DNA from: Dermatophagoides farinae
Taxonomy: Eukaryota > Arthropoda > Arachnida > Sarcoptiformes > Pyroglyphidae
Assembly: GCF_024713945.1 (NCBI RefSeq)
Contig: NC_134679.1
Coordinates: 7,073,001 to 7,137,000, forward strand
Direction of reading: 5' to 3'
DNA: 64,000 nucleotides
Shown piece by piece: positions 16,301 to 63,412 of this stretch. The notes beneath the pieces are model-generated. The model was given only the letters and a program-made list of their open reading frames with translations. It was not told the origin of the DNA and searched no databases. Every line of letters begins with the position of its first letter. Position 1 is the first letter of the stretch. The position numbers were made by a program, and so were the translations under genes.

Positions 16301-19300
16301 CACAATAAAAATATGGTGGGAAGCATATCATCAAATCATTAGAGTGATTAACGGTAGAAAATTCAATTGAGTTTTTGTTTTGAATTTCCATTCTTGATTG
16401 ACCGTTATGTATGAATGTATGAATGATATGTGCATATTGCTGGTAAATGTGATTGGAATACAAAAAAAAACAGACACGTGAATTATAACGTGATGTAAAT
16501 TTTTCATGTTTGTTATCAACAATCATCATCATCATCATTTGATTTGATGAGGGCTCACACCTGTTCGGTGTGACTTGGCTTTCTTTCGGCATGGTTCACT
16601 TGATTTTGAAAAAATTACACATGAATGAAAAATGATGACAAAATTGATAACAAAATGCACAAATGAATTCTGTTTCTCATTTGTTTGACGATAGCACAAT
16701 TTTCGTACAATGACTTTTGAATACCTCAACTGTTGTGTTGTGTTGTGTGTTGTTCATTGGCCTCTTTGTCTATGTCTATATTTGACAGATGAATCAACCA
16801 GTTAGAACGATAAACATCACCCAAAAAAAAAAAAAATCAATCAAATACAGTACATTACAACCCGTGTTGACCCGAATCGATAATTTTCCATCATTTCTTT
16901 TTAATAATACACAATATTCGACTTTGGATGAATATGATTAAAAAACGATTTGCACTGTTGCAAATTCTTGTTGTTGCTGTTGTATTTGAACACCTGAATA
17001 ACATTGTTGTTGTTTATAATTTTTCTGGGTTCAAACACACAAAAAAAACATTCCGTAATGTGAATGACAGAGTGAAGATCCTATTCCTATACAATTCAGT
17101 TCCTGTTCGTTATGCTGTCGTTATTAAAATATTTACATTTGATTCAAACCATACACAGATATCATATCCTTGTTGTTTTGGTGATTTGTCAATTGTCAAT
17201 GTTAATTCAATTCGATAATGATGATGAAGACAATGAAAAATTTGAATAAACGGAAACAAATACAAGCAAACAAAAGATTGAATGTGAATATGATGATGAG
17301 TAAAATTTAAAATAACAAACACCAATCAATACAATATAATAACAAGAGCTGCTGTTTTATATATTTTAATATTTCAAATCTATAATTAGTACATCACTCG
17401 GTGGTGGTTATTATTGTTACAAGTGTGAGAAAATCAACTTATGTTTTCTTTTTGAATCGGATTTTTCTTAAAAAATTAGATTGAATCCGTTTGTCGTGAT
17501 AATCAAGTGTTTCTATTCTAGATTCTAAATTGAGATTCATTCAATTTCTTATCTCAACTGCACAAACACACATACACACACACACCTATGTACACCTACA
17601 TATATATATATCAATTTTATTTTATATTTTATTTACCTAGGCGCGTGTGTAAGTTTAGTGATAATAATTAGTAAGTGTGTGAGGGTGTATTTAGATTTTA
17701 TTTTATTGTCAAGAAAATGGATAAATAACATTTTCATTGTTTCTCGTGTGTGTGTGTGTATGTGTCAATGGAATTGTCATTTCAATTCAAGCCTCGCTGT
17801 AATAAACACACACACACACTGAATGTGCACTGAAATGGAGAAAATTAATTTTTTTATTTCATCGATTCAATATTTCTTTTGTTGCCTATGAGTGAGTGTA
17901 TTTGATTTTATGATACATCCCTATTTCATTTGAACGGTAATAAAAAAGCCACTTTGCCACAATTTTTCACACTGATTTTCAGTGTTTATCCCACAAATTA
18001 TTGCAGTGATTTTTGATACATTTACCTTTGATTTTTGATGTTTGATTTTCACTTTGTCACTAACGCGGTATCCTGGTTTCTTTTCTTTTTTTTCATTTGA
18101 TTTCTAGAAATTTTGACTCAAGTTTCCTCCGATTGTGGATTACAAATCCCATCATCATCGAATGAAAATTCAAATTCTTCATCCCCTAAATCGACATTCA
18201 ATAACGTGATTCGTAACATTTCATTTCGTTCAGATAGGAATAATATTCATCAACGAAATTTTGCACCGGATCTAAATCAATTGAATCAATTTTTCAATCT
18301 AAACTTTGCCGGTGGTAATCAACAAAAATCATTAAAACATTCATTCCAATCGAATAATTCATCATCATCATCATCATCATCATTATCATCATCATCATCG
18401 TTTTCGGAATCGTCATCTTCATCATCATCAGTGTCAGTTCCAACAATAGACATGCCAAGTTTGTTGGCAAATTATTCATCAACAATGGCAGCGGTTTCAA
18501 ATTGGCCAAATGGTAATTCAAATAGTCACCATCATTCGTCGTTAACAAATTCAGCTAATCATCATAATGGCAATGAATTAATGATTGGATTACCACCGGC
18601 TGGTTCCGGTTTAATGATAAGTCCAATGATGGATCCTTTAGCATTTGCTGCTGCATATGGATCATTATTTGCCGGATCATCATCATCATCATCCACACTA
18701 ATGCAGCAGAATCTGCAAGCATCATTGGGATTGGGAAATTTACTAAGTCCAAAATCACCGACATCATCATCTACATTAATGAACATGAATGGTCATCATG
18801 ATAATAATCATAAATCGAATGATTTAAATGAAAAGAAATCAATGATAAATAATCATAGAAATAAACGAACAACAAAATCAATTATCAATGACAATAATAA
18901 GAAACCAATTTCAGATTACTCCATCAATTCAATATTGTCATCATCATCAGCATCATCAGCAGCATCAAAAATATCGATCAAAAATCGATCAAATCGATTG
19001 ATTTCAAATAAACAGAATAATAGAAACAATACAAACAGTGATGGTTTGGAAGAATATTCCTTGGTTTCTTCATCACCATTATCATTCTCATCATCCATAT
19101 CTCCATCATCATCCACATCTTCATTATCCGTGTTGAATGGTATCGGCGGTAGTGATCGTTGCCAATCACCAATACAATCATCATCCACTACATCATCATC
19201 ATCAGCATCATTGATTGGTTCACCACCATCATCATCATCGACATTAATATTGAATGGATTTTTGCAGATAAATAACCATCATGATCAAGATATGATTGAT

Positions 19301-20952
19301 ATTAATCAAAAATTCAATGATAATGAATCATTACAACGACAACAACGACGACGACAACGACAATCATCATTGAATAGTAGTCGTACCAATTCGATTACAT
19401 CCGAACGGTTAGAAGATGATAATGTCCAAGATGTTAATGATGATGATGATGATGAGCCGATTATCGATGTGGTTGAAGATGAGGAAATGAAACCAATGAA
19501 TTTGTCCACTAATAATTCGTCTGATAATGATGATGGCAAACATCCGCATCAAAGTCAACATGCGTTTTCAGATCAGACAGTAGCTGAATTATTGTTAAAA
19601 CATTCGGCTGGTACAACGAATTTATATCAACAAATTTGCCACAATAGCAATATGATAACGCCACCAAATTCACCACCATTCTATGCTAATCCATTCCTGT
19701 ATTCAGCTGTAACTACTGCTGCAGCTGCGGCTGCTGGACATGGTCAGCAACAAACAATTGGTTCAACAAAAGATTCAAAAGAAAATCATCACCATCATCA
19801 ACATCATCATTCAAATGATACAAATGCATTCGAATCGCAATTGAATCGTTCTCGTTCATTCATTCTATCACATTTGGCTGACAATAATCACCCACAATCA
19901 CAGAATACGACATCAACATCTGCATCAACAGCCTATCTACAGCCTAAAAATGGTGGATATTCATTCAATAATGAACAACAAAAAACCTTATTACGTTCAT
20001 TATTTCCTTCCGGCGATATGTTCTCTTCCTTGGTTGCAACAGTTCCATCCTCATCATTCAATACATCATCGGCCAATGTTTCTACAGCAGCAGCAGCACG
20101 AAATTCATTGTTGAATTTGGTCGATAATAATCATTTAATGGCTGCAGCCGCTGCTGCTGCCGCTGCCGCTGTAACATCGACCGCTGGAACAACAGTGAAA
20201 TCGAACCATAATCATACAGGCCATAAATTATCATTATCACTACTAAATAGTCATCATCACCATCATCATGATAATAATGGAACAATATCGTCATCTAGCG
20301 GCACGGATCGTACATTTGAATGTAAGCAATGTGGAAAACAATTTAAACGTTCATCAACATTATCCACACATATGTTGATCCATTCAGATACAAGACCATT
20401 TCCATGCATGTATTGTGGTAAGTTATTAAGTGCAAGTGTTATTTTCATTGAATAATTGAAATGATGTATTGATTGGAAAAATGTAGGAAAAAGATTTCAT
20501 CAAAAATCGGACATGAAAAAACATACTTATATTCATACCGGAGAGAAGCCCCACAAGTGCAATGTATGCGGTAAAGCATTTTCACAATCATCAAATCTAA
20601 TAACACATGCCCGTAAACATACCGGTTACAAGCCATTCGTTTGTGATCTATGTCCGCGTGCATTTCAACGTAAAGTTGATCTTCGTCGTCATCGTGACGC
20701 TCAACATATATTGCAACAATCAAATAATAACAATGGTAACCATAATCATAACCATACTGCTAATCTTCGTCATCATCATCATCATCATCCTCGATTAATG
20801 GAAACAATAACAATTCTGTACTAAATCATAATGGTTTATTGCCAGTACCAGCACCACCACCACCACTATCATCGACCACACAACATCCACATCCACCCAC
20901 ATCAGCATTGATGCTGCCACAACAATTAGAGCAATTATTACTGCCTCAATAA
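13367..20952 (+). CDS. sens: Senseless/GFI1-family C2H2 zinc-finger transcription factor
   Basis: Nuclear DNA-binding protein; in insects Senseless promotes sensory-organ fate with proneural bHLH factors, and in vertebrates GFI1 is its orthologue. Four consecutive C2H2 fingers match this family, with linkers [16 protein letters not shown] and TGYKPFVC and the element [18 protein letters not shown]. Proposed exons: 13367-13505 (two in-frame ATGs, 13367 and 13388, then poly-Ser and poly-Gln), 18108-20417 and 20487 onward. Exon 1 ends with GTAAG in phase 1 and joins TTTCTAG at 18107 in frame; the 69 bp intron 20418-20486 falls inside finger 2. The long N-terminal part is Ser-, His-, Asn- and Ala-rich, with an acidic patch followed by PMNLS, resembling a CtBP-binding motif. 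Having four rather than six fingers fits the invertebrate form. Reading straight through, exon 3 stops at 20824, but coding-like sequence continues in another frame to 20952, reachable by a 110 bp intron 20736-20845. The fingers are certain; the exact N- and C-termini are not. Confidence 0.88.
13506..18107 (+). other. Large first intron of senseless
   Basis: This 4.6 kb intron is bounded by GTAAGT at 13506 and a pyrimidine-rich acceptor ending TTTCTAG at 18107. I see no gene inside it. It holds CA/GT tracts and ATC repeats. Its size contrasts with the 57-110 bp introns elsewhere and suggests regulatory content (inference). Confidence 0.6.
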
Positions 20953-22427: not shown

Positions 22428-24622
22428 TTAAACACGAACAAAAACTTTATCGATCACATTAATCATTGATGAAATTGATTTTGTATCCGTTTGATCATGA
22501 TTATAACGGCCATAATGTTGATAATATCGCCGTAGATAAATAGGATTCACTAAAACTTGTTCAATAAATTGGTGCCATGATTTTGGCGACAATGATGTCA
22601 TATTATATGAGTCACGTGCATTATATTCAAAATCCCAAATTGGTTCATATTTTTCGAATGGTTTGAATTGTTTATCGTCCATGTTTGCTTTGGTTAGATT
22701 CAGATAATATGTCATATGATCGATGAGTTGACCATTTTCAGGGTCCGTTGAATAGAAACGGAATGATGGCATTACATTTAGATAAGTAGTTACACTTGGC
22801 GCTAGATAGGCAACCCCAATAGGCTCTGGATCATTTGGTTGATTTGAATAATAAATACGTATTTCATCTAGATGTGTGTGGCCGAAAAATTGTCCACGAA
22901 TGATATTCTTATATGTTTCAATGATATTGCGATATGTGACAACCCAATGTGTGAAACATTCATCTTCATCCGGTGCAATGTGACCAACAAGATATACGTA
23001 TTGACCGGCTAATGTGGCATTCTGCAATTCTCGTTGTATCCAATGTAACATATCACCCATATCCAGATAGCGCAATACATTCCAAAAATTGAGTCGAGCA
23101 CAATAATTCATATTCATAACAATGAAACGTGCCTTGCCGTCGACTACAGCATAATAACCAAATTGGCGAAATGTTTCATGATATTCGGATGGTATCCATT
23201 GTTTCCATTGTTGTAATAATTCTTCATAAAGCCATTGACTTGAAAATTGTCTGTTCAGATCTTCTGGACAAAATTGATCCACTGGATGTGATTCATGATT
23301 ACCAATCACGGGTATGATAATTTTATCACTGGGAACATGTTTCTTGATCAATGCATTGAATGTTCGTGTTGTATGGACAATTTCATCTTTGGTTGTATTC
23401 CAAATATCATGTGGTATGTAATCACCGGTCAACAATAGATAACGATATTGATCCGAATGATGTTGTGAGATTGTTGCCAGAAGATTTTCAATAGTTCGAA
23501 GTACTGAATCACAATTGTCCATACTGCCCCACATACCAGCGGCATGGCTTCGTTTATTGGCCGTGCTTGTTGCGCGACAACATAATGGTTCACTACATGC
23601 AGCTGGTGCATTCGGTTGATAATAAATATCCAAATGTAGATCGGACAAATGAAGAATTGTGGATACATTTTGCTCAACTTGCAATGCATTTTCTTCTCGC
23701 CACTTTTGTCGATGTTCGAGATCTGTTTGAGAAACGAAAAAATCGTTATAAATGGAAAAGGATTTATTCCAATGATTTGAATGAACTGAATGAACTGAAA
23801 TACCTAGAAGAACATTGGTAACATCATTGGACAATGGTAAAAGTGGTAATTTCCATTTATCACTATATGGATATCGTGCACTATTTGGCATACAACTTGT
23901 ACCAATAACAAGACCGCAAACTTCTGAATGTGATAATGTTGAATGTATTAAAATGTAGATTAATTCTTCACCAAACAATTGGCTTAGACCTTCACAAACT
24001 CGATATTCTTCGTAGCCTAACGAACAAACATTGATAAATATTGTCTGTACGGTCGAAAGACTTGGATATAAACGTATCAATCCAACAGCAGCTGAACAAA
24101 CTTGACATGTAAGCCATGATGCTTTACCTCTCATTGCTGTATTGTATTCCTGAAAGAATTATTCACATCAATGCATTTGTTTGCAAGAAGAAGTACCAGA
24201 AGCGATTGTTAAAGTGGGGGTGGTATATGGGTTTTCGGCAAAGCAAATTATAAGAGAAGAAAAATTACGAAAATTAAAATGATGACAACCGGGTAATGCA
24301 ATGATTATTATGCAAATCTACATTGTTATTAATATGGATTATGGATATGGATATGGATATGGATTTGTCAACTCACTTTAACTAATAATTTTGGATTTAA
24401 AAAGCGCAACATATGAATGGTACTGAAAAGCGTATGATCATGTAAAGGAGAGTGTGAATGACTCACTTTTAGTGAATTTGTTGTCGTTACATTACTCAAC
24501 GTCCATCCATTGACCGAATTATCATGACCAGGTACAATCATACCTTGAACATTATAATCAATTATGATTATTAATGACACAAGAATCGATAACATGACCA
24601 AACTTTTCTTCAATGGTAACAT
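22428..24622 (-). CDS. SMPD1: Acid sphingomyelinase (sphingomyelin phosphodiesterase)
   Basis: Hydrolyses sphingomyelin to ceramide and phosphocholine in lysosomes or outside the cell with zinc. Three exons on the minus strand: 24622-24377, 24149-23804 and 23722-22428, all joining in phase, giving 628 residues, close to the roughly 630 of the family. The ATG at 24622 is followed by basic residues and a hydrophobic run (MLSILVSLIIII), a signal peptide; more upstream in-frame starts are non-ATG. Residues about 83-175 form a saposin B domain with paired cysteines (LTCQVC, NVCSLG, YRVCEG, SEVCGL, GTSCMP). The metallophosphoesterase domain follows with all signature blocks: LHLSDLHLD, TGDYIPHD, IGNHESHP, VGHIAPDED and FGHTHLDE, holding the expected metal ligands Asp, His, Asn and the late histidines. 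Intron 1 is 227 bp with a GGATAT repeat; intron 2 is 81 bp and has no stop in frame. It is convergent with senseless. The family call is very secure. Confidence 0.95.
24334..24365. repeat. (GGATAT)n hexanucleotide repeat in sphingomyelinase intron 1
   Basis: About four to five tandem copies of a GGATAT hexamer lie just downstream, in gene orientation, of the first splice donor of the sphingomyelinase gene. Confidence 0.85.
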
Positions 24623-39000: not shown

Positions 39001-40061
39001 CTGTTTTCATGGAATTTTGTTCTTGTGGTAGTGCTGTTGATGGATTGATTTAATGGTTCGTTCGGAAATCGATAATGAATAGATCAAGAATCGAATGCAA
39101 AACTCGATGACAATAATAAAAATAACAATAATTAATAATAATAATAATATTCAGAAATTCATTTATTCATTTTTTCGGAATCGATTTGTCCAAATGTCTT
39201 TGCAATCTCATTTATGAAAGATGAAAAAGAAAGTTACATTACAAGTTCATTTAGAGAACATGAATAATTATCATTATTATTATTATTGTCGACCTTCCAC
39301 AACAGATATTTTCGATAGAGCAACAAGAAGAAAATTCATGTTGAGTGTTGATGTGTGCAATGTAATGTAGTTTTTGTTTCGTTTTCATTTAGCAACCACT
39401 GTTGGTTGCTACAGGATTGTTTTAGCTCGTTACAACACTCACTCACACTCACTCGCACACACCGGAAGAGCTATTGATGTAATGAGAAAATTTTCATTAT
39501 TTTTCGTCTCGATAATAAACTTATTGGTTCATAACACGGTTAATGTTTTGGTCTCTCTATGAGGTGTGTTTGTTTGTTGCTGTTGTATCTTGGTGAACCA
39601 GGTGTAAATATAGCTAAACACACTCACACTCACACGCCTATGAATATGGACCGGTTCAAGTATATATTGTATAGAATTTATGGCCAGGTGCATATTCCAA
39701 TTATTGCATTTCCATATCCACGATGAAAATGAACGAAGCGCGCCAAAATTTCGCTCTAAATTCATTACTCTTATCTCGATGACTGACATATCTGATGACT
39801 CAATTTCTAATCAATTTTTCTCATTTTCAGATCATACTTTACCTTATGTTGTAAATTATCAAATGAAAGCCAATCGAAACGCTCAAGTTATTGTCAACAT
39901 TATAGACGATTTCTGTGAAGTGAAAATACCACTCAATAACAAAGTAAATCTGAACATTGATTGATTGGTTGATTCAAGTGATTGTTTTTGACGAAACCAA
40001 GTTCATAAATAACCGCCACACTGATTCAAACTGCCTTCATTTGATTATTGTAATCCGGAAG

Positions 40062-40299
40062 CCGACCTGTTGGAACTTCGTCAACTAGAGGCCGGTGAGC
40101 GTTATGCCCGGTCACACGGTCCATTTGGTTGTACGCCGCGACCATCATCCGAAGTATCAAGAACCAGCTTATTGGGCAGACCAATCAAACCGGGTCCACA
40201 TAGACATCATGATCCACGTTATCGTAAATCACAATCATTTGTATACAATTTCCTTGAAAGGCCGCGTGGATGGAAAGCATTCGTCTATCATCTTTGCAT
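40062..40299 (+). CDS. KCNQ: KCNQ alternative N-terminal exon A
   Basis: Encodes the cytoplasmic N-terminus and start of S1 in the form closest to KCNQ1: [18 protein letters not shown], then [20 protein letters not shown] and KAFVYHLCM. The donor at 40300 (GTAAGT) is in phase 2, and codon AT|G is completed by the first base of the shared exon at 55046. The frame is open upstream only to a TGA at 40022 and contains no ATG, so this must be an internal exon; the acceptor at 40061 (CCGGAAG) is my best guess. Another frame across the same stretch is open for 94 codons but shows no family pattern. Exons B and C are its paralogues. Confidence 0.85.
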
Positions 40300-43200
40300 G
40301 TAAGTGTACATTGTTCGTTTTTCTTACTAGAAAAATTGCACATTCCATGTTGATTGAAAAACATAACATGACAACATGACAAAGATCAGATTACATTACC
40401 AGATTCTCATTTCTTTGTTTATTCATCCAATTTTCTCTTTCTCTGTGTGTGTGTGTGTTTGTCTGGGCTCTGTTGTTCTTTGGTTGTAGTCCATTATCTG
40501 TTTGAAACGTTTCACTTGTTTGCCATTTCTCTTCAAGCCAATAGTAATTTCCTATTGCAAACATTAATACTCGAAATTCTGGCAAAACTAATGTTTTCCA
40601 TTCATGTCTACTGTAAGATTTATGGCCACTGAAAATATTTTTCTACATGGTTGTCTTTGTTTGCAGATGCGAGCAGAAAAAGCGATTTGAAAGTTTTTTC
40701 TCACAAATGTTTATTTCCGGTTGTTTTTTGTTTGTTTAAATTTTTAAAATTTCCTCATATCTACTTGAATTTATGATTTTTGTCATTTCCCGAATTGTTA
40801 ACAGTTTTGATGAACGAAAAGGAATTAATTTGATCGTGATCATTTAAAGATTGGTTCCTTTTGATGAGGATGGAATTTGAAATTGCCATGGTAACCGGAA
40901 CGTTGAATTTATTGACATTGATAAGTCTCTCTGTCTTTGTGTGGGTAGCATTACTGGTTGACAGAAAGGCAAAAACAAATTCATCAACTTTAAATGAAAA
41001 GTTTGAATATTCATTGATTCATTCATTCACCCAGTTTCCAACAAGCAAAATTCAATTCAATCAAATTGAAACGAACCATCCGGCTGGTGACCTTACCCAA
41101 AATTTTGTTAGATTTTTTCATTCACAAAAAATTCTGCTACTTTAAAACTTTTGCATTTTTTTCTTCTTTACTTTTTTTCTATTCATAATCTCTTCTCTTG
41201 CGAACCTTCTAATGCAATTTGGAAATGTTTCTATTGAAAAAATCTGGTCTGTTTTTGTTTGACAAAAAACAAAATCTATACCCCAGGTATCACGTACGGC
41301 ACAGAGTAAACAACAAAAAAATTATGCACCTGACATGAATGAATAGTGGATGTATAAATTAATTTTGAATAAAAAAACTAAAAAAATCCTCCTTCATCAT
41401 CTCGAGTTTCCTTGATGTGTGTGTGTGTGTGCTATCATCACCATTGTCTGGTCCAAAACCATGTCACGTATATACGAACAAGGGAGTGAAAAGAATTTTA
41501 AACTTGCATTGAATTTAATTCATCAACAAATGAATATGATGCCGCCACCGGTGCCCAGGAAACAAAAGCGAATGATAAAATTAGTGATTCATATGGATGT
41601 AGAAAATAAATTCTATGAAATCCTCTAGGCCGGATAATTTGTTCTGGTCGTTGTTGCCAAAATGATAAAAACACAGAACGAAAGAAATTTAATTTAATTT
41701 GTCTTTGCTTTTTGTTTTTTTTTTTGTTTTGTTTGAACTGAATGAATGCATGATGAGAAAGAGACAGACATGAAAAATAATGATTTGCTTGCTCAGAAAA
41801 TTGTTTTCAAAATTCAAATTCATTTATAATTGACATAATAATAACTTATAACTTTGTAATGCTGACTTTTGAGATATGATCATTTACAATGTAAGCTTAA
41901 TTTGTCTTTTCAATACAAAATAATGAACAGAGCATAATTGCAAACTTTTTCATTTCAAGTTTTTTAATGGTTGGGAAGAAATGAAATTTTTGAATTCAAT
42001 TCAATTCCATAATGCAATAATCTATGATAGAAAAAACATCAGGCGTCATCTGTTGACTTTGGACGTAGATTTTTTTCGTGATTCTAATCATTACCTTGAA
42101 GAAAATTCTAATTATTTTCTTATGTCTAATCCAAATTTCGTGATGAATAGACAGGAATGTAAATGATTTTTATTTGCCGAATGGATCCATAATGAAATAT
42201 TTGTAGCAAATGACAAGGAAAAAACAACTAAAGAATTGGCAGGTGAATTTCTGATCTGGCGAACTTTTTTCTAATTTGGTTATTTATACATTACAATAGA
42301 ATAGAATAATAATTACACATGAACATGATTATATAATTTTATCGACAAAACAACACACACACATACATACACATTTCAAATAACAAAACAACATGTCCAT
42401 GTAATAATAATAAAGATAAATAAAACAAAACATAACCAAATGGTAGATGTAGTTTAGTAGCCAAAATCAACAACATATTACACAAATTGTAATCACTGAT
42501 GATGATGATGATGATGGACATTGGGAATATATAGCAAAATCCATCGACCATAAATATTTCATTTGTTTTTCCTTTTTTTTCGCAATTTCCTTCAATTTTT
42601 TCTTAAAGGTAATCATAATCATCATCAGATTCTGAACGATTTGATGATGATGAAAGAAAAATGGTGCTTACTTCTCGTCATAATGTTCATCGACACACAA
42701 TTACTCCCACACAAACACTCAGACATCATTGTTGATCTTGTACCGAATTCAGATTGACACCCGTTGATTGTAGAATGACTGAAATTTGGAAATAAATACA
42801 ACGATTACACTTCAGTTGAAGTTTTAATTTAACTGCATTTTTCTCTCTTTTTTACTTTCATTCAGCAATTTACGTTTTCCATCATATTAATAATTGGGAA
42901 ATTTTATGATTTTCAAATTGAAATTTTTGTCCAACTTTTCATAACTCTGTGTGTGTGTGACAAATAATTATCATGAATTTTTGTTCATTTCCAATGTAAT
43001 TCCAAAGGTAAATACAGACATAACAGAGAAAGAGAGTAAAACACTAAGCTAAACTCACGCAAATGATTGCAAATGGTGCAAACAGAATCTAACATTAATC
43101 GAATTCTGACACGAATCACACAATGAACACGGAGAAAAAACAATTAAATGTCGATAGATAGACAGATGACGCCCATTGTTGATTAGCCATTCACCATTGT

Positions 43201-46200
43201 CTCGTTGATAGTTATCGACATCGATTGATTAGTAATATTTCCATATTGAAATTTACCAACAACGAAAACAACGGCAGAACAAACAAACATGAATAACCAT
43301 GGATTATCATTCTCTTTCGATAATTAGTATGTTCTTTATTGCTGCTGTGTGTATGTGTGTTTTGTGTGAGATAATGAAACTTGGCCAAAGAGCATTTACT
43401 CGAAAATTAAAATCATAGTATGATTCTGTGCGGCACACCTTTACCCCCTCTACTTACGTCAACTTTCGTCAAAAATTTAACTTTTTTTTGCAAAATTTGT
43501 CAGTTTAAATATTTGTTCACTACTTTAATCCTCAGAAATTTACATCACATTACCATTTTCCACCTTGGCTTGGAATTCTAAATGATAAAATATGGTTATT
43601 ACAAGTGTAATTCAATTCCCGAGAGTGGAACAAATGAATTCAATTGTTATTGTTGTCGTTGTGAGAAAGAGAATAATTTCTTTTTCAATTATTAGAATGC
43701 TATCATATATCATATATATCCCTGTGAGAAAATTTTTAATTTTTCCCATAGTTTTTAATTGTTAACTTGACGTTTTGATATATGTAGATGTTGGTGTTGA
43801 TGTCACACAATGGACCCAATCTAATCTGATGAATGGTGGATAACCCCCATACGAATGTGCAAAATAAAATTTCATCATGTTAATCATGAACATTGGTTAT
43901 GAAAAACATTTTTTTTTTTCATTTAAATTTCATAATCGTCAATTGTGTGATGTAGAAATCAAGTTTATTATTCAATTTCGAATCGACTGAATGAATGGAT
44001 TTTTCTCATGATTTTTTTCCTTGACCAAAGAATGCATGATAAAATGGAAACGGATTTCCTTTTTCCATTTTGTTGACATATTTTCTCTGTAAATCAAAAT
44101 AAAATGCTGGATGGATACAAGATGTTTTCAGTGAAAACTATCGACGGTGATCGTATCGTCTTCACTTTGCTTATGAAATGCCTTTTTTTCGTGAATGTGA
44201 ATTTAATACTTTTCTATTTAACGAAAAAAAGGCAAACTTTCAAATTTTCATTTGATTTTTGTTTTTTGAGGAATTCAAGATTGACGAGCACTTTAGTTAT
44301 TTGCACAAGTACAAGTCTATACTGATGTCTGTTTGTGTACTTTAGTATATGTGATTTATGGACGAACCAAACTTTCGTTCATTATTTCTTTTGTGCGTTT
44401 TTTTCGTTTCGTTTTGTTTTGTTTTGTTTTGTTTTTCGGTGAAAGCCAAATTGACGTCCAGATGATGATGTTCATCATGATTTGATTCATTAAATAATGA
44501 TATCATGAATGTTGATTCATATCGATTCATCTCTAAAAATATCATAATTCGATAAATCAGAAAACATCAACATTTGCAGCGAATGGAAAATGTTTTATTC
44601 GGTGAAGAATCATTAAATGTATGAAATGTATGAATTATGTCATGGCAACAACCATATTGAAAGCATGGACGATGATGGAAGCTTTAATGATCAACATCAA
44701 AGATGGCAAAAATGAATTTTTTTGGTTTTTCCAAAAAATCACATTTTTCAGTATGTGTGTCGGTATCATTGATTGGCTTTCTTTTGAATCGAATCAAATC
44801 AGAAGAAATCAAAAATAAAATTGTTGAAGACAACTGATTCTCACTGCTAACCAATCATAATAATAACAACAAAGATTTATCCGGCCTTTAGACGAATTGC
44901 ACGAATTTAACGCTTCTACGTTATTCCATCGTTGAACATAACCACCAGCAAAAAACAAACAAACAGAATTAAAGAATCATTTTGAATCGAAAAAACATGC
45001 GCACTTTGAGTGTTTCCAATGTTTTCCTTTTCATCGTCTTGTTGATCCATACCACACACACACACTGACACACGCATAATACAGTAGTCAATTTGCTTGA
45101 ATTTTCGAATGATTCGTCATTCACAATTCATTATTCGTTCTTGTTCACATTCTTCATCTGTGAATTTTTTTTGATTTTTAAATTTCAAATTTTAAAAGCC
45201 AAATCATTCATTTGTCTTGAACTTAATCTTGATCTGGTTAATATTTTTATTGATTCATTCCATGCGTATGCTTTGTGAGTGCGTGTGTGTGGGTATCCAC
45301 CAAATTATTTTTTTAGTTGTATTTAATTTTGTTTTTGTGATGTGATTTGATTTTCTGATGATGATGATGAAGGTTTTTTCAATACAATTTCTTTTGAATC
45401 GAAATAACAACGAAAACTACGAATTATTATTAATCTGGTGTGGTGATCTGAATGACTAATCAAATGATACACACACACTGAATGTGCGCGTGTCTGTAAA
45501 ATAGTTTTCTGCAATCACCAATATGGTGACCATCATCATTGATGAATCTAAATCAAATGTGATGTGATGATTCTATATTTGTTTATGATAATCTAATTTT
45601 CGTTTTCGTCATTCGTCATCAACATCACAATCAACAAAGTTCAATTTTTCTTTTGTTTTGTTTTCTGATCAGCCATCGATAATGAGAGAAAACCTTGATG
45701 ATGATGAGTGAATTTTTGTTTAATTTCACTACATTGAAAAAGTTTTTTCCTCGCACACTATTTCAGAGATTTGAGCAACATGGAATTTGTGTTGGAAATC
45801 TAAAAGATTTCACCTCGAGACCATGATGTTGATTTTTGATTTAAATTTCAATTAAATGCGACAGTTTCATAGCTTAAAATGGTTCAAAAAGATTCTACTA
45901 GCAAACAAATCGAAAGTCTCAATAGCAATTGAAAACGAATTTACGAACTACTGTTTAAGAAATGAATGAAAAAAGTGAAAATTCTTTTCATTCATTCATT
46001 TCCTCAACAATGATTGATTGGAAATTGAATAAATCTATTATATTTTCTCTCTCTCTTTCTCTCACAAATACACACGCACGCACACACATCTCAATCATTG
46101 TCGTTGTGCGATATGATCAAAGGTAAATAATGGTTTCATGTAAGAAAAGTGTTTATGAAAGGCATCTGGAATCATTTTCTTTTCCTTTGAATGCTTTTAA

Positions 46201-49200
46201 TGATTCGAAGGAAAAAACTCATTATTAACCCACCTTTTTCGCATATTGATCCCAATGATCGAATAATAATAAAGTGCATGATTCGAATCGAGTGTAGGGG
46301 AAAAAAACGCATTAGCATTGTTCATTAACAACCATTTATTTATCATGAACCAGTATTTTGCTGAGGAAATTTTGTCATCTTTTTTCTGTTCCAAATGTAT
46401 GGTTGGAACAAGGCAAAAAAAAATAAAGATGGAGAAAAAAATTCCCCATAAACCAGTCATCATTTGTTATATTCGTGCTTCTGACTGTTGTCATTTCGTA
46501 TGACATTGACTATAAATTAGATCCTGTTTCACAAGAAAAAATTTTTTTATCCACCTTAGAGTTCATAGGTTTGTCGATGTGATGTTGTCATCAACACTGG
46601 CTGCGAGAATAAGGTAGTCATGTGCCCGTGTGTCTAAGGTAGAATAACAACAACAATAATGACAATGACAAAAAATGAGCCAACAATCTCGACATCAATT
46701 TATATTTGGTGTCATTTTTTTTTGTTGGTTCGGTGCCGGCAACACTATTTCGATATACAATATTTGTATGGACAGCATTGCTATGGAATGCAATGTTTTT
46801 CATGTCCAAATAAATCGTACCGAATTCGGGTAGTTTTTCTTTTCAATTTTTTTTTGTTTGGGTCTCAGGGCACTATATTCAATTTCCTTTTCATTCTTTG
46901 CTTCCTTTCTAACATTGTAACTGCATTTTTCACGCCTTTTGTCATTATACTAGTGTAATGATCTATAGAAATCTTGTCGAAGGAAATAATTTCGACGACA
47001 AGAACATTATTTGCAGACAAGGTAGCTCTAAATTGTATTTATCTGTAGGTATCCAGTACCGACAACAACAACAAACGATCCGAATAATGGTTTTTCTCTT
47101 GTTTTTGGCTATTGTTCAGTGTTTACCGTTGATGGTGATATCATAATTCTTTCATGATGACTATTTACCTGATGTCTGATGCATTTATTCCATGAAATGG
47201 TTTCATTTTTTGATAGATCAGATACCATTTGTATGTAATACATTGATGAACATGAATTTCGTGAAAATAAATTCAAAGCTTTCTTGATATTAGCAATAAA
47301 ATCATTCGCTAATTGATGCATCCCAGCAGATTCAAATAAAATTCACTGATCCATGATTATGATTGCTAGTAGGTGCTTATTTGTTTGTTTTGGAGAAAGT
47401 AAAATGTTTCCTTATCGAAAGAATGGGCCACACTCATGCTCATGCTGAACGTTTTTTTAAAATCCTAATTCAAATCGAATACTGTTGAAATGTCTATTAG
47501 CATTATTTATTCTATACATTGGCCATTTATTTATTGTTTTTTTTGGCGTGTTTGTGGCCACTTAAACTTGCAAATATTAAATAGTATTAGTGTACATTGG
47601 ACACTAGCACGAAATCTTACGTGTGTGTGTCGGTAATGTTTTCACAGATTCATGAGTGACACTCATCGACTATGATGATGATGGCTTTATTGTGATTAGT
47701 GAACCCGTTCTCATCGAAGTACTATATTATCAATCAATATAGTACTTGACAATAACCAAACTATTGTTTCAATGATTGAGTGATTGAGTTTTCAGGATTT
47801 CCTACCCGCCAATATTGAAATGTTTGTCGGTTTTTTTTCGTGCGCGCATGTTTCAGATATTCTTTTTTCATTTGCGAGAGAGAAAAAAATGCGATTCCTG
47901 AATTCTTGTTCTTCATTCATTCATTCACATTAGAATACTGACATCAGCAACCTGAAATTCCTGTTGTCATCATTTTAACCTGGTAATTAGAATAGTGGTG
48001 ATGAATGGCAAAGATTTCTACTCTTTAAACATTTTTTTTGTTCAAGGTTAAAAACATGTGTGTGTATTTGATCAAGTTGAGATAATTAAATGTGAAATGA
48101 AACGAACATGAATGAAGAATTTATAATTGATTATGTGCTTGAATTTATGTCATCTCCAAATGAATGATGAAACTGATTCGATTATAACATTTTCATCATC
48201 AGTGATCATAGTTTGTCGTTGTGCATTAGAGAATAATGTGATAATCACCAAGAATAATAAATGCAACATCATTATCATTATTGTGATTGTGATTGTTATA
48301 TGGCCAAGAATTTGGATAAACTTTCCATTTGAAATTATGATCAATTCAGATTCATTACAAACTGATCGTAGCAATAATAATGAATCAACACTATCACAAC
48401 CGTCTTGTGAATCCTCATCATTCGATACATCCACGACATTATCATCAAATGAAACTTGTTGTTGTAGTTGTAATAACAATTATGATGACGATGACAATAC
48501 ACTCAGCACTACGATAACCTCAACAACAACAGCGAATCAATGTTATTGTTGTGTAACTGAATCTTCAGAATCATCAGCATCAACATTGACATTAACGTCA
48601 CCTGAGTCACCAAGTTGTCAACTAACAGGTGGTGGTGGTGGTGGTGGTTATTGCAGTAGTAATAATGATGATGATGATGAGAATCGAATCGATATCAAAG
48701 TCAAAGTTGGTATTGAATTGTTGTATTTTTCTTTCTGAAATGACCATGATGTTTTTGTTTATGTTCAAATCATATGACCATTTATTTAGTCATTTCCGAT
48801 CGATATCGATGATGATGAAAAAGGCAAACAAGATGAGACAACATTGATTTTTATTGTCGATCCAAAATCAAATTGTCACTCACAATCACAACATAAATGT
48901 CTACGTAGAACCACCAAAACGACTACCACAACGACAACAACGATTGAATTGGATGAAATTATCGCCAAAGAAACAAACTCAGGAAAATTGATGACCAATG
49001 ATGATGATAAATATGATTCCTATCTTGAATTGCATAGATGGAAAAAGATATCATCATTAATGGAGATGGACAAATTGACCAAACATTATGATGCTGGTGG
49101 CGATGGAAACAAAGATGGCCAACAACAATTAAGAAGGCCATTCAAACGACGTGTTGAGTTCATTATGGATCATCATCATAGCCATTATCGTCATCATCAC

Positions 49201-52200
49201 CATCATCATCAACAGCAGCAGCATAACCAACATTCGATTGACAATGATTCGCGTGAACAACTTGATTCAGATTCGGTCGTTGTTGCCGTTGGAAATGATA
49301 ATGATAGTGTTGACGATAACGATAACGATAATCAATCCGATTCGGAAGATTCGAAAAAAATGCCAGAAACCGAAATGGAAAATTGTATCGATCTTAATGC
49401 TGATGATGATGGTGATTCGATGGAATCAAATGAAACAACTGATACAAAAGCCCAGATACGCAGAGAATCCGATTTACTTAGTTTTTTACGCTCATCGACC
49501 AATTCTGGTCACCAAATTCATCGTTCATCGGCGTATAACGCATTTCGTGCCTCAAAACGATCACAAATGCATCGTGTTAGCTTATTAGGACGGCCAATAC
49601 ATTGTCGTCAACATCGTCATATTACGAATCCACGTTATAAACAATTACAGAATGATCTACATAATTTTCTTGAACGTCCACGTGGTTGCTCACCAATGTT
49701 CTACCATATAACAATGTGAGTAATGTCATTGTAATTGTTGATTGAAAATTCAAAAATCGTTGCCTTTTTCTCGTACAAGATGGCGTAAGTGACTAGTGTA
49801 AGTGTAATTTTTTTGCAAATAATATTTGCATCAAGTTTGATAGAAGATAAGATGACTGTTCATCTAACATGGTCAAAAAAGAAGATTGAGTGACAACTGT
49901 TACGAACAAATATGGCAATAAAAAATGTTTTTTTTCTGTTGAAAAGACATTTCCGTGTCTGTGCCGGGATGTCAAAACATAGAAATAGAATTATTGAAAT
50001 TCTATCCGGATTTCGGATGTGAAATCTAACCCGAATGTGATGAATCTGAAATTCATTGAAAATCGAGAACTTAATTGATAAATGTGATCACCATCATCGT
50101 CATCAGCGTAATAGATGGTGGATGTTGTTGTTGTCGTTAATCTGAGTGAATCTGACAAAAATCATTGGTTTTTTTTCATGAAATATTTCAGTCGGAAACT
50201 ATTTTGGCAATTTTGACATTACTCTGTTTGTTTTCTTGTATCTTTTCATTTTTTGTTTGGATTAGAGTAGGTTATTTTTCATAAATACAAAATAAATGAC
50301 CACTGAATGAAAGCAATCTCGAACCAAAACTAAAAACTATTGGGATGCTTTCATTGGCGATACTTTTTTTGTTTGAAAAAATTTCGTTTTTCTATGTTTT
50401 GTCCACTTTGCACACACACACACACTACCTTCAATCCTTGTCTCTATGGATGATGATCAAACTCCTCAATTTGAGAATTGCAATTCTGTCGTGTTGTTTT
50501 TCTTTGAAAAGAAAATAGAAAAATTCCATTTAAACTATTGAAAACACGAAGTTTAATTTGTTATGATATCTGGTATTGAAAAATATGTTTTTTTTTTGTA
50601 AATGACGCATTCATCTATGTGATGGGTTTTTCTCTGCACCCATTTTAAATGAATATTTCGGATCAACCACTGTCCACAATATGGTGATATGATATTCATT
50701 TTCATTTCATATGCCTTATGATGATGATGATGATGGTAGTCGTTGATTTGTCTACTGTATATGATAAAATGGAATTTTCGATTGATTCGGTTGATTCGGT
50801 TCTATTTGACTGATTGTCCAAATGACGAAAGGAAGAGAAGAGAACATGCCTAATATGAACTCTGTATTTGTGAGCCAAATATTTTCATCCATCAGTGTGT
50901 GGTTGTGTGTGTTTGTGTGTGTGAAAGAATTCTGGAAATGGATTCAATAATAATAATATTTGGTAAATATTTCATTCCATCGACTCTGTTAAATTTCCAT
51001 AAATGTATGCTTTGACTGAAATCAAAAACGTAGAATTCAACAAAGTTATCATCATTGGGACAGATGATGAGAATATTTTTTCAATTTATCTCCAAGTATT
51101 TTGTCTACTCTACTACTGTGTGGTGCTCGAGTTTTTTAATTTTGTTATTTGATAAATTGGATGATCAGTGCCTTCATTTGTTATTAACAACACAAGTGAA
51201 TATAAAATATTTCTCGATTGTGTCAGAGTCAACTATGATTATCTACTAGTTATCATTATCATTATTATTGCTGGTTTTGTAGGAATAAAGGAGAAGGAAA
51301 AAATCACACCAAAAATTATTGACTAACAATTTTCTTCTCTCTGTTCATGTTTGGATGATGATTAATAATTTTTCTTAAGTGAAACATCAAACATCAACTT
51401 CAGCATTGCGTGAACGGTGTGTCTTTGTGTTTGTATGTGTGTGGTGTTGGTTGCATCCATTATTTTGGTTGTCATAAGTGTTCAGTGTTCATTTGGCTCA
51501 TAAATGGACAGAATTATTTATTAATTAACACGACAGTGGCGAAAAATAGGAAAAGATTTATATTCAAACACATGGCCACCTATATCGTTTTATTATTATT
51601 GACGCTGTTTCATTAGTTTGGATTTTCCTTGAGTCTAAACTATTGAATGAAGCAACAAAAAAGCATTCATTATTATAATGAACGAAATTCAAGTGACAGC
51701 AGAATTAATATTTGAAAGGAATGGATGAGTGAAATGAGAAAAATTTTCACCACCGTAGTGATGATGAGAAGAGAATTACTTTGATCATTTTTTCATTTGT
51801 CCATTTTGAAGTTGCAACCAAAACAAGAATGATGATAACGATTAGTCGGTCCACCATGAAAAACAACAACCACATGACCAAATTGTGTGTGTGTACGTGT
51901 GGATGAACAACAACAACAACAAGTATAGAATGTGATGACCAAAGTTTAGTTTTGTTCTTCTGTCTACTTGATTCCTTTGTGGCAGTGATAATTGATTATT
52001 ATGGAACTTTTAATGGATTCACCGCTATCTGGTTGTTTTTGTTTGTCGTAGTTGGTTGAAATGTTTTTTTTTCTTGCTTTGTCATATTTATTATCATCAT
52101 CATTGCATGTTTTGATTGTTTTTTGTTTTGTTGTTTTGGTGTTTGTTTTTTATTTGTCGTTCTTTGTTTGTTCACTGTTTATATGCGGATGGAGCCGACA

Positions 52201-53501
52201 AGAATGCTTCAATGAGCAAACAACAGTGGTGTTTTGTCCATTCACTGAAAGTTGTCCTAAATCATAATGGATCTAGATAAGCCAAACACACAAAATGTTG
52301 CATTTTTCTCGTCATCACTGATTTCTTTTATCACTTGACTATCTGAATGGCTCAATTTTTGAAATTTTCAACAAGACTAAAATTGTCTTCCGTTTATTGT
52401 GCCAATGTTTTACCGTTATTTCGATTCATAACTTTTTGATTCTATTTTTTTTTTCATTATTTTCAACCATTCATTCCCAAGCGTGACATAGATTTTCATG
52501 GGTTTGATATTTGAATGTATGCGTGTACGTCTATTTTTTATGAGTGCAGTAATTTTTCTTCCGTACAGTTTCTGTCTATTTTGATGATGACGGTGGAAGA
52601 AAGACGAAACTCTTAAATGAAAAGGTACTACTTGTTCACAGGAATTTTTATGAACCACAGAGAACAAAGAAAGTAAAGTTGAACAATCGAATTTTTTCCT
52701 ATAAAGTTGGCGGAAGGAAAACGAGAGAGTGAGAGACAGAGAGAGAGAGAGAGAAAGATCGATTGCAAATGACGGTATTTGATAAGGGTAATTTGATGTC
52801 GAAAATTATCTTCATTCATTCTCATTCACTACAACTTGATTCCCTTTTGTGCGTTGCTTACACTGTTTTTTTATTTTCGAGTATCAATCGGTACTTTTCT
52901 GTGCAACGGAGAAACGGAGAAAAAACCAAACGATTCAAGTCATTTGGCAATTTTTGATTATATTTAGAGAGACCAAGAGAAGAGGATGGAAACAAATCGA
53001 CATTGCCACAATTGGATTGTTTTTGTTGCACTCCTTGTTTATCATTCATTCATTGCTCATATATTATCATTTCGAGTGGCTGACAAAATATGAATTTCAT
53101 AATTTCCAAATGATTTTTGCTCAGGTATAGGTTTGTGTGTGTGTGTGTGTGTGTGCAGCAAACCTTTCACTTGATTTTGGTTTTCATTTTTCATGCGAAA
53201 ATTACTTAGTCTGAGTCAATCTATGTGATGACAACGGCATCAAAGTGCCTGACTTGTATGCTAATAAAAGATGAGACAAAAAATGAATGACTCTAGTGTG
53301 CGTGTTTATGCGTGCGTGTGTGTGAATCCAGAATTCTAGAATAACTCTGTTCAGTTCTCTTTTTTTCATTTTTATCGTCATTGTCGTAGTTGTATTATCA
53401 GTCGTGTGTTCCTTTTATTTTCTGCTGTCTCGTCTCTATTATCTACTTAACGTTTGCACACATTATTTGGAATGCACATTTTTTATGAAAGAATTTCTAA
53501 C

Positions 53502-53540
<39 letters not shown>

Positions 53541-56500
53541 TCTCAAATCAAAACAATGGAAAAAATTGATGACGCTGATAAGCGATTGATTAAGAAAGTA
53601 TTTGACTTTGTTCACCGTGATCACTTGATTGAATTATTGTTATTTGACGCGAAACAGGAAAGAATGAGAGAGGGCAAAATATGACTAAAAAACCCAGAAG
53701 CAACAGCAGCAAACATTGGCACATGAGTTCATTTGAATTGTGATTCTGTGATTGAATGAATGAGTCCAATTGTGTTACAATGAATTTTACGTCTGCATTT
53801 TGTTCCATTCGTGTATGATTATTTCATTTCCCATCGCTGTACATGTATCCTCGAGCTTTTTTGGTTTATTTTTGATTTTTTTTTCATCATTTCATTTCTC
53901 ATTCGTTGATTCCTTTGTGTGTGTGTGTACTCTTGGATTTTCATTTTCATTGTCTTTTTGTTGTTGTTTTGAAATGATAATGAAAGAAAATGAAATCAAA
54001 TTTACATCTATTCTCATTACACAACACCTGTCATCATTTGTTTTGACCACCAATGTTCACCATCTGATGCAAGAATCAAATTTGAAATTTGAAATTTTTT
54101 CCTTTTTAACATCACAACACCATCGTCAATTGACTTTGCTTCATATGCCTGTGTGTGTGTGTGTGTGTGTTGAGCAAAACTCATATGTTTTTGTATGATA
54201 ATTTTGTGATTTTCAATGATGAGACTGAAATCATGGCCACATGATAACCATGTTAACGATGGTCAATACAATGCTAATAAGATTAGATTATGAATGTGAA
54301 CAAAATCAATGTCCGACAATGATTAAATCTAACAATACATCGACAATGGCAAAATCTTCGGTCATTGTAATGGATAATAATGACAACAGTAATGGTGCAA
54401 ACAATCAACGACAAAATGTGTGGAAACGTTTATCGGCTCCTTTTTCCAAACATCACCACCACCCACCATCAATAACAATGGCTGCTTGCCATGACTTCAA
54501 TGATGATGGTGATGATGGAATGAAACAACAGCCATTCAAACGAATACGGATGTTACGTCAACATCAACATGGTGGATCATTAATGGGGACATATGGCCGT
54601 ACAGGCAGCTTTGTCAATTATAATCGGCCAGAATATTATTGTTGGCGACACGATCAACAATTTCGTCGCTATCAAATGATTGTAAATAATTTTTTTGAAT
54701 TACCAAATGGAAAACTATCAATTTCCTATCATATTATGGTGTGAGTTTCTTATTCAATTTTTTTCCAAAAGAAAAATTTGCCGTCCAATGTCCTATTTTC
54801 TCATTCTGATTGGATGGTATGACAAGAATTGAATTGAGTTGCAGAATGAAATGAAATGAAATTCAAATATTCTGCTCTGCCCTAAATATAATAAATATCC
54901 CGAATTCCAAACAGACACACGCACACACAAAACATTGCCATTCAATTGCAATAGATTGCATTTCTTTATTCTTATTGACTATGTTCATTTTTCTCATTCG
55001 TTGTTCATTTATTTATTATTCATCTGTATATCAATATTTTTACAGGTTTTTTATGGTGTTTGCTTGCCTGGTTCTTACCGTATTCTCAACGATCGACCAA
55101 TATGAAGAGGTGGCATCACGTATTCTACTCAAGATGGTATGTATTACATTGATTCTTGTGAGTGATTTGCACTGATGATCTGATGGTTTGATCAATAATA
55201 GGAAATCGTTATGGTAGTTTGGTTCGCCATGGAATTTATGCTTCGTATGTGGTCGGCTGGATGTCGTTCTCGTTATCAAGGATGGATGGGTCGGCTTCGA
55301 TTTTTACGCAGTCCATTCTGTGTTATAGGTTTGTGGTTAATCGTGTTTGATTCAAGCAATTGATTTTCATCATTGTCCACATTGAACATCCATAGATTTG
55401 ATTGTGATAGTAGCATCAACAGTAGTACTTTCATTGGGCAGTTCGGGTCAAGTGTTCGCTGCCTCAGCATTACGAGGCCTTCGTTTTTTTCAAATTTTAC
55501 GTATGGTCCGTATGGATCGTCGTGGTGGCACTTGGAAACTATTAGGTAGAAAAAACAATTGAAATGAATTGGCATTAACCTAACATCATGATGATGATCA
55601 TTACAGGATCTGTAGTATATGCTCATCGACAAGAATTAATTACCACCGTTTACATTGGTTTTTTGGGCCTAATTTTCTCATCATTTTTAGTATATCTTTC
55701 GGAGAAAGGTGTTCATCCGGAAAAATTCACCAATTATGCAGATGCCTTATGGTGGGGTGTGGTTAGTATCCATTATTGATTGAGTGAAGCGATGATGAGT
55801 TTCATGTTCATGTTTGTCCTTTGGCCAACAATAGATAACATTAAGCACAGTTGGCTATGGTGATCTCGTTCCACAAACATGGCCAGGAAAATTGGTTGCC
55901 TCGTTTTGTGCATTGTTGGGCATTTCGTTTTTTGCCCTACCTGCTGTGAGTATGGAAAATTAGTTTTTGGAAAATGAAATGAATTCATTCTGTAAATTTG
56001 ATATTTTATACCCAAACAATAATCCTAGGGTATTCTGGGATCAGGTTTCGCGCTAAAAGTACAGCAACAACAACGACAAAAACACATGATCCGACGACGA
56101 GTTCCGGCAGCTACATTAATACAATGCCTTTGGAGATGTTATGCAGCGGATGAGAATTCAATGTCTATTGCAACATGGAAAGTTCATCAAGTTCCATTGC
56201 CCAGTCCGTCTGTGTAGGTTTTTTTTCTCACATAATTTCGGATTGCAATTTATGCATTTCAATCGGTTGTTTGTGTTTTCACAACCAATTTTATAGCAGT
56301 TTCAAGCACAACACATCATTTGTTAGCCGTTTCTCCACAATTCGTCGTTCACATAAATCGGCAACACATTCACCACTAACACGGTCTGGTGGCCGTTATG
56401 GTGGAGGAAACAATGGTGGCGGTAGCACTGGCTGTCAGGCTCCCGTTGCAACTGGATCAACATTCGAAACATCTACCGGTAATGTTCGCGAGGATTCATT

Positions 56501-59500
56501 GGTCAGTACCACAATTGGCGGTGGACGTGATTCTCGTATACCCGGGAGTGTGAGCGAAGATAGTGTTTTAGCCAAAGAACTTTCTGAATTTTCCAAACGA
56601 AATTCTGATGGTGAGTATATTTTATTATATCTATAAATGAAATGGTAAATGGAAAAAACTATCAATGATGATGATGATGAAACGGGGCAAGTGAATTTAA
56701 ATGAACAAACCATTAGGATAGAATTGGGTACCACATATTTGTAATACAATTGTTATCGATCGACAAAATATATTTAGAGAACATTGGTAAAACAATGGTT
56801 CACACAATTGGACAGAATGATGATGATGATGATGATGATAATTCACAACAACACCGTTCAGCCACCACAATGCCGCCATTCATTCACTTATGTCAAATGT
56901 TACAAAAAGAATATCAGCATCCACCGTTTCTAACACTGACACCGACATTTCTCGGGAGTCATGATCAAAATTTTCCGCCATTTCCAACAACAACAACAAC
57001 AACATCAGCAGCCGCAACACAAGCACATTGTCAACCGGCATTATTCCATGCGGCAGGACATCAACATCATCATTGTTCAGGTTCGATTCATGTATCTCTT
57101 GTGTTTGTTGTTGTTGATGCGTGCATCTTTTTCTCACGGACCCAATGACTATTTTAACTCACACTGACACACTTGTTGTAATTAGCAATTGTAGCAATTT
57201 GTTGTTGTTTTTCGCTACCTCAGTTCATTCGATTAGTAGCCAATCCTCACTCACACATGTCCTCATTGTTTCCAATTCAAAATGCTTATTCGTGTCCACT
57301 TTCCTCCACCCATTACCCAATTGTTTCAAGAGAAAAAAAAATTGTGCTAATTTAATTCCTGTCTATATTGATTGTTAAATGTGCAAATATATGAAAATCA
57401 GGTCGTGGTGATCAACAACAAAACAATAATGAGAATGAGAATAATCAAAGTGCACAGATGATGAGTAGTTTCATCTGTTCTGGTACATTTTTTCCATTCA
57501 CAATGCCAAACACTCAACGACGACATCAACATGGTTTCGGTAGTCATCGTCATAATAATAGCAGCTGTGCAAGTTCAGATGATGGTGGCACAATGTTTGG
57601 TAAGCAATTAATCAATCAATCAAATCAAATGCAATCGAATTTGGCTATGATGCAATTTCAAATGCTTTTCAATCTCCTATATGTGTATATATACGCAACA
57701 CGTGTCTTCTAATTGGCTTCTTATTGTTTTGTTTTGTTTCACACACATTCATTTTATGTTGTGAGCTTTTTTTTCATGTCACTAGAATGGTGTTTTCCTG
57801 GGTAACATTTCCAATGCTTTCTTCCATAATACTCAATTCAATTCAATTCTTCTCTATTCTGTTCTATTCTATTCTATCTCAATTCATTTCTATTCTGTTT
57901 TTCGCTTTATTTCCATACATTCTTGTTTACAAAGTTGGCCATTGTATCGGCTAAACTGGAAATTGTATTCCATCGGAACGAAAAAATGTTGATCCAAACT
58001 TAATGTTGTATGATCATAATCATTTCTTTCATTTTTTTTCAATTAGATGATGATATTGAAGAACATCAGCCTCGATTCACAATCCTGACCAAACAGCACA
58101 AAAATGCCATTCGTTGTCTTCGTAAGGTGAGTTTTGTAATGTTGCTGTCATTTTTTCCACTAAATAATACTACATCATTGGCAGATTAAATATTTTGTCG
58201 CACGACGAAAATTCAAAGAAGCGCTAAAACCATATGATGTTAAAGATGTGATTGAACAATACTCAGCTGGTCATGTTGATCTATTGGCCCGTGTTAAAAA
58301 TATTCAAACCAGGTATCACGATGATTCGTTCAATTTGTTAATTAATTGGATATTTTCTTTTTTCACAGACTCGATTTAATATTGGGCAAAGTTGGTTCCA
58401 AAGCCAAAGATGTTTATGAGTCCAAAGTTAGTCTTGCATCACGTATTGTCAAAGTTGAACGTACAGTGGAAGATATCGAAACCAAATTGGAAAATCTGCT
58501 CGAAATGTATTTGGAAGATCGAAAAATGCGTAAACAACAACAACAACAGCAACAACAACACCCACCACCACCACCACCTCCATCTCAACCATATCGTTCT
58601 TGTATTGATAATGATCAATCACAATTAAATCAGCAGCAACAACAATCATTATCACACCATCCACATTATCATCACCATCATTCTCCCACGATACAATATC
58701 ACCAGCAAATGTCTTCAAAACAATCGCCACAACAACAACAATCAACATCATCGATCATCATTTGTCAACAACAACAACAACAACAACAACGAAATTTGAG
58801 CTCAAATATTCCGAATTCTTCCTCATTAATTTTTACTACTTCAAATGATGATGATATTGTTGCTGGTAGTAATATGGCTATAATTACTGGTGATATTCAA
58901 GCCAACAATTCAAGCCAATCATTAAAATCGATAACCTCAACTGCCACGACCATAATGAAATCATCAAATGGTCATCATCATCCATATCATCACCACCATT
59001 ATCACCATCCCCATCATCATTCACAATCACAAATACATCCGTCCTCGAATTCGGGCATCAATAACAATAAACATCAACAATCAATAACGTGTTCAATGTG
59101 TGCGGAATCACCAACAGTAACAACAGTAACAACGACTATATCGAATACGATAACAAATGCATCATCATTGTTTTCATCATTATATACACCGGACCCTGAA
59201 TTGACATTAACAACACCGACAATGACAGTCGCTACAGCATTTGGTGGCCAACCAAAATGTGCGATGGAAAAGGAATGTGAATTGTGTTCAATAAGACAAT
59301 TTATCGATGATCAACAACAAGATCCATCGATAGCCGACGACTATTCCTCATCATCAACGGCCGATGTGTCATCATCGAACAAATCAGCAGCAACAACAAC
59401 AACGTCAACGACGATTGCAACACGTAATTTAAACAAGGTTCGTTCTTGGATGTAATGACTTGGTAACTGAAAAAGAAATGTTTTTCTAGATTTAAAATTT

Positions 59501-62159: not shown

Positions 62160-63412
<1,253 letters not shown>

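Follow-up and report, generated by a model that had tools for sequence, protein, structure and literature searches.

Three candidate alternative N-terminal exons on one shared KCNQ channel body in the mite Dermatophagoides farinae

Can a single KCNQ (Kv7) channel gene offer three interchangeable N-terminal exons to one channel body? This question was raised by a stretch of Dermatophagoides farinae DNA (assembly GCF_024713945.1, contig NC_134679.1, positions 7,073,001 to 7,137,000 of the forward strand; 64,000 nucleotides, nt), which we call the window and which is part of contig 3 of an assembly of 62.4 Mb and 22 contigs. A first-pass annotation of the window had described three related exons, here called A, B and C, ending at positions 40299, 49715 and 54740, and had proposed that they are mutually exclusive alternatives joined to the same downstream exon at 55046. 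Our analysis supports the three exons as interchangeable N-termini on one KCNQ body, and we see no further partner to which B or C could be joined. The reading we prefer, at a probability of about 0.75, is that the window holds one KCNQ gene with three alternative 5' ends on one shared body; the anatomy of these ends is visible in the window, and from it each end would be expected to be used in transcripts.

Exon A (40062..40299, + strand, with a putative 5' boundary) encoded the pre-S1/S0 region and the inner end of S1 in canonical KCNQ form. Exon B (48991..49715, +) and exon C (54319..54740, +) would each supply an alternative N-terminus. The B frame was open from 48790 to 49716 and its first ATG, at 48991, is a candidate start, while the C frame was open from 54229 to 54741 and held 12 ATGs as candidate starts. 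The donor sites read CTTTGCAT|GTAAGT after 40299 for A, ATAACAAT|GTGAGT after 49715 for B, and TTATGGT|GTGAGT after 54740 for C. Each exon ended with two bases of a codon (phase 2), which the G at 55046 completed to M, M and V, respectively, so that A, B and C fitted one shared exon in the same phase and at the same codon. The phase, the GT donors and the fit to 55046 were thereby confirmed for all three exons. The distance to exon 2 was 14,746 nt for A, 5,330 nt for B and 305 nt for C, and both B and C were located within the 14.7 kb first intron. A perfect (AG)16.5 run was seen at 53505-53537, about 0.7 kb 5' of the C frame, and was one of five GA/TC-type runs in the window. In arthropods, promoters can be marked by runs of the GAGA type, and this one is possibly relevant to a putative C promoter.

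Judged by its sequence, this + strand gene of the window is clearly a KCNQ gene. Seven exons with GT...AG borders, from 55046 on, encoded the rest of S1 to S6, helix A and part of the cytoplasmic tail. These were the shared exon 2 (55046..55136, +, 91 nt, the rest of S1), exon 3 (55202..55328, +, 127 nt), exon 4 (55396..55545, +), exon 5 (55607..55761, +), exon 6 (55835..55945, +, with the pore, the TVGYGD filter and the start of S6), exon 7 (56029..56213, +, with the end of S6 and helix A) and the cytoplasmic exon 8 (56297..56610, +), the borders of which were placed by eye and had no homology support. The exon 2 of human KCNQ1 is also 91 nt long. The six body introns measured 61-83 nt each. 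The Ion_trans domain (PF00520) was matched with 128.2 bits. We compared exon A plus the body with the PDB and considered the best 60 of 197 matches. Among these, KCNQ5 was first (E 6e-132), the chains of KCNQ5, 4, 2, 1 and 3 ranged from 6e-132 to 1e-107, one 159-residue KCNQ1 fragment had an E of 1.5e-57, and the next family was Kv2.1 at 4e-28. An open frame further 3' (58346..59452, +) matched the distal KCNQ C-terminal domain PF03520 with 23.0 bits, which is below the Pfam cut-off of 25.

We then asked how far A, B and C are related to each other and to known KCNQ channels. The tblastn search within the window showed 54% identity between A and B over 46 columns (E 1e-12), 41% between A and C over 29 (E 3.6e-5), and 30% between B and C over 37 (E 0.009). 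The likeness of A and B covered the last ~46 codons, including the upstream SLLGRPI block. The best unrelated match in the window, of A at 8367-8432, had an E of 0.016, so the B-C match taken alone was near chance. Searched alone against the PDB, A had KCNQ at the top (KCNQ1, E 4.9e-7) and the first non-KCNQ chain at E 0.73, and B had KCNQ at the top (KCNQ4, E 0.0032) and the first non-KCNQ chain at E 0.072. A pre-S1 profile was built from A, four of eight KCNQ-like paralogs found elsewhere in the genome (L022, L023, L026 and L027) and four of the five human KCNQs (KCNQ3 omitted); B and C were left out of it. In the window this profile ranked A first with 66.5 bits, a score that is circular because A is in the profile, B second with 22.3 bits and C third with 14.2 bits, and the fourth match scored 6.0. 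The C-terminal peptides of the three exons were as first described. The three peptides and the profile gave no credible fourth copy of the exon within the window. Genome searches were made with A and C as queries: A (E up to 10) returned five matches, namely A, B, C and two paralog loci, and C returned two, C and A. Tandem repeats (10 rows in the window) were considered as a source of the three exon ends and do not account for them.

Human KCNQ1-5 have a common S0 motif, YxxLERPxGW, in the available text of PMC3472549. Exon A matched this motif fully. Exon B kept five of the seven fixed residues (changes Y111H and W120C) and exon C kept three of seven (Y111N, L114F, R116L and W120K), while Y125 and H126 were kept in all three. 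In a table of 29 columns, made from the same rows as the profile plus B and C, A was identical to human KCNQ4 at 19/28 positions, to B at 15/29 and to C at 10/29. B and C have therefore diverged further than A.

The coding potential of the three frames was measured in two ways. The stop-free frames were 92 (A), 309 (B) and 171 (C) codons long, with chance values of 3e-3, 3e-9 and 2e-5 per frame. The longest stop-free run in presumed non-coding + strand reached 167 codons, so the length of the C frame alone is not exceptional. The whole-frame codon-usage score, trained without A, B and C, was positive for all of them (B 56.7, C 19.3, A 16.7). The comparison set was made up of the 118 open reading frames (ORFs) of at least 80 codons in the window, and the ranking is partly circular, as its low-scoring comparison ORFs came from non-coding training stretches and the top gene exons were in the coding set. 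Every other ORF that scored >5 either overlapped an exon, known or candidate, or the antisense of one, or lay in the 3' part of this gene (56717-57145 and 57395-57709), and the next ORF scored 4.6. We regard exon A as canonical, exon B as well supported and exon C as likely, though not secure.

Several results weigh against our model. The 14.2 bits of C were exceeded in 2 of 30 null windows (the reversed window and 29 random ones), and were reached in 4 of 150 random windows generated from the dinucleotide frequencies of the window; at this score, one of the 150 had its match at the profile end and none had an in-phase GT there, the last of these counts being in favour of the model. C alone gave no match in the PDB search up to E 10. 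One antisense frame of A scored 14.9, compared with 18.1 for the true frame; the antisense of a genuine exon can score high. The nonsynonymous and synonymous divergences (dN/dS) over 30 codons were 0.50/0.94 for A-B, 0.58/0.81 for A-C and 0.70/0.71 for B-C, with no strong purifying signal; these 30-codon blocks are uninformative to weakly purifying. For A, neither a convincing acceptor nor, in a scan of 24.2-40 kb, a convincing upstream coding exon was found. The seven AG acceptor candidates listed for A had 9-12 pyrimidines in the preceding 20 bases. The same scan, for exons with an ATG and a GTRAG donor (with A, B and C added to the coding training set), returned 20 candidates, of which the top one scored 2.1 over 14 codons and the longest, of 92 codons, scored -13.6.

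Some of these results would also be expected if only A, or A and B, were used, and C and perhaps B were decaying duplicates rarely or never joined to 55046. That C is the most diverged copy, with three of seven fixed motif residues, that it has no independent PDB match, and that the pairwise dN/dS ratios lie at 0.5-1.0 all point in this direction. However, decay would not be expected to leave the frames intact over 309 (B) and 171 (C) codons, with consensus donors in the right phase, a positive in-frame codon score and the retained Y125 and H126. We consider decay unlikely on this balance.

Do B and C belong to this gene at all? Their distances from the shared exon (5.3 kb for B, 0.3 kb for C) and their long private N-termini could be read as marks of another gene. 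However, no second KCNQ body exon and no duplicated body exons were found within the window. We further examined the other KCNQ-like genes of the genome. There were at least eight of these, all diverged, the main matched pieces being ~27-46% identical to the body in the window, which indicates that the genome probably holds a sizeable KCNQ expansion. The eight genes examined lay in seven stretches (L022-L028; C8:2244031, C4:1111043, C4:2700395, C3:1274393, C3:1277736 on the minus strand, C4:3796345, C3:3158668 and C2:3954797), and weaker channel matches on C1, C2, C4, C5 and C9 were left out. Three of the eight (L028, L025 on the minus strand, and L024) were compared with the PDB and KCNQ was the best match of each. 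In all eight, pre-S1 and S1 were encoded in one uninterrupted frame. These paralogs are therefore without the intron in question, and B or C would serve no purpose in them. The first-pass annotation had named ownership of B and C by other genes as one finding that would speak against its proposal; what we found instead were self-sufficient paralogs (8/8) and a single body in the window, and we regard a home for B or C in another gene as extremely improbable.

If A, B and C are ends of one gene, what selects between them? The first-pass annotation took them for mutually exclusive cassette exons, in which case a common upstream exon and promoter would serve all three and splicing would select A, B or C. 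The open frame of A (40025-40300) contained no ATG at all, so A requires an upstream exon, as this arrangement demands, and AG dinucleotides occurred in every phase within the B and C frames. On the other hand, B and C each contain private ATGs just 3' of in-frame stops and long N-termini dissimilar to that of A, the acceptor of A is unconvincing, and the three open frames are of unequal length (92, 309 and 171 codons). The private ATGs and N-termini of B and C make promoter choice more likely than cassette choice. The intron sizes also suggest this: body introns of 61-83 nt, set against 14,746, 5,330 and 305 nt to exon 2, are the pattern that would be expected if each alternative first exon had a promoter to itself. 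We therefore think cassette splicing improbable, and the claim of mutual exclusivity is not upheld. In the model of one gene with three alternative 5' ends, B and C would most likely have their own promoters, and the transcription start would decide the isoform. A candidate further coding exon of B was found just 5' of it (48337..48705, +), which would run in phase 0 to an acceptor at 48789 from a weak donor, GTTGGT; it is low-complexity and coding-like, with an in-frame score of 36.0 versus 40.4 in one antisense frame.

The split codon of A, B and C aligned with human KCNQ1 residue 129 (the human letter at this position in the alignment is presumed). The N-terminus of KCNQ channels is cytoplasmic. 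S1 of KCNQ1 spans residues 120-143 (PMC12724399, Table 1, in the part available), so, the N-terminus being on the inside, A, B and C supply the inner end of S1. The earlier proposal that the exons vary both the N-terminus and the outer half of S1 thus stands for the N-terminus, since those of B and C are unlike that of A, but the part of S1 that varies is the inner, cytoplasmic end. The splice inside S1 had been called unusual, and this does not hold, since it is the ordinary KCNQ exon 1/exon 2 junction. A known splice variant of human KCNQ1, c.387-5T>A, is placed where intron 1 meets exon 2 (available text of PMC5606890), which puts the end of exon 1 at c.386, in phase 2. Human KCNQ1 exon 1a encodes 129 residues (available text of PMC5465588), and the mite exons likewise end within S1 at residue 129. 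The mite junction is thus like the canonical one (c.386/c.387, PMC5606890) in its phase 2 and its place within S1, but unlike that locus, the mite first intron carries two extra coding exons.

Alternative N-termini of KCNQ1 had also been brought forward as a parallel, correctly so, as the human first exons 1a and 1b are known (PMC5465588). Like these kidney and pancreas isoforms, the three mite ends would combine dissimilar N-termini with an identical channel body. In contrast to 1a and 1b, which the available part of the same article describes as highly dissimilar, the mite has three exons, and B and C have recognisable S0/S1 homology to A. The locus is a variation on the known alternative first exons of KCNQ and not a new mechanism. 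Among the papers listed in our literature searches, none dealt with alternative KCNQ N-termini in mites, ticks or insects, a weak negative because most subscription journals were outside the coverage.

What the three ends would do to the channel can be approached from human KCNQ1. In our model A, B and C would each provide a different cytoplasmic N-terminus, S0 and the initial residues of S1 on its inner side, spliced at the exon 1/exon 2 junction, and isoform A would be a normal KCNQ subunit. In the available text of PMC3472549, KCNQ1 lacking its first 114 residues showed lower surface expression, the mutants Y111C, L114P and P117L were not detected at the surface, and another study is quoted in which the N-terminus of KCNQ2/3 mainly affects open probability. 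In a multiplexed KCNQ1 screen (a preprint; PMC12724399, Table 1, in the part available), the positions of S0 that reached 10 or more dominant-negative variants each were 111 and 114. B and C resemble the KCNQ1 S0 dominant-negatives (Y111C/S and L114P; PMC12724399, PMC3472549) in that the same residues are altered (111 in both, 114 in C) and the rest of the channel is kept. Unlike those variants, the mite changes are natural and exon-encoded (H111 in B; N111 and F114 in C), and their effect is a prediction. Among the eight KCNQ-like paralogs, position 111 was Y in seven and F in one, which makes H and N at this position unusual even by the standard of the paralogs, and position 114 was L in seven and F in one (L027).

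The reading we favour on these data is that subunits made with B or C would be changed in surface export or gating, one or the other being tuned by the altered S0. Since 111 and 114 are hot spots of dominant-negative variants in human KCNQ1, B and C may be low-surface or inhibitory subunits; as partners of A, they could traffic poorly or be dominant negative in part. Further than this, the gene might encode its own brakes, with B and C co-assembling with A to retain channels intracellularly or to set their open probability according to cell type, an idea we hold only tentatively and consider rather doubtful. Three points count on the other side: F114 is present in one paralog (L027); the effect of the B and C residues is transferred from human KCNQ1 at the level of positions, not of the exact substitutions; and, according to the available text of PMC5465588, each of the two first-exon isoforms of human KCNQ1 makes a functional channel, which speaks against an inhibitory role.

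The window held other features besides the KCNQ gene. Upstream of the KCNQ locus lay a C2H2 zinc-finger gene (18101-20824, +), whose open frame was very long and of low complexity, and a frame at 22431-24158 (-) that had an acid-sphingomyelinase C-terminal match. A papain-family cysteine protease exon (PF00112) was located at 62663-63052 (-), and presumably resembles the group 1 house-dust-mite allergens, which fits an astigmatid mite as the source. The search for RNA genes in the window gave no Rfam match at the gathering score and no tRNA.

Expression of B and C would mean that an invertebrate KCNQ gene offers channels that vary naturally in S0 and are identical in the rest. Whether the KCNQ N-terminus acts on surface export or on open probability is disputed, and this could then be tested directly. 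The old intron in S1 would also, under the same condition, be a recurrent site of N-terminal diversification, in the mite gene as in human KCNQ1.

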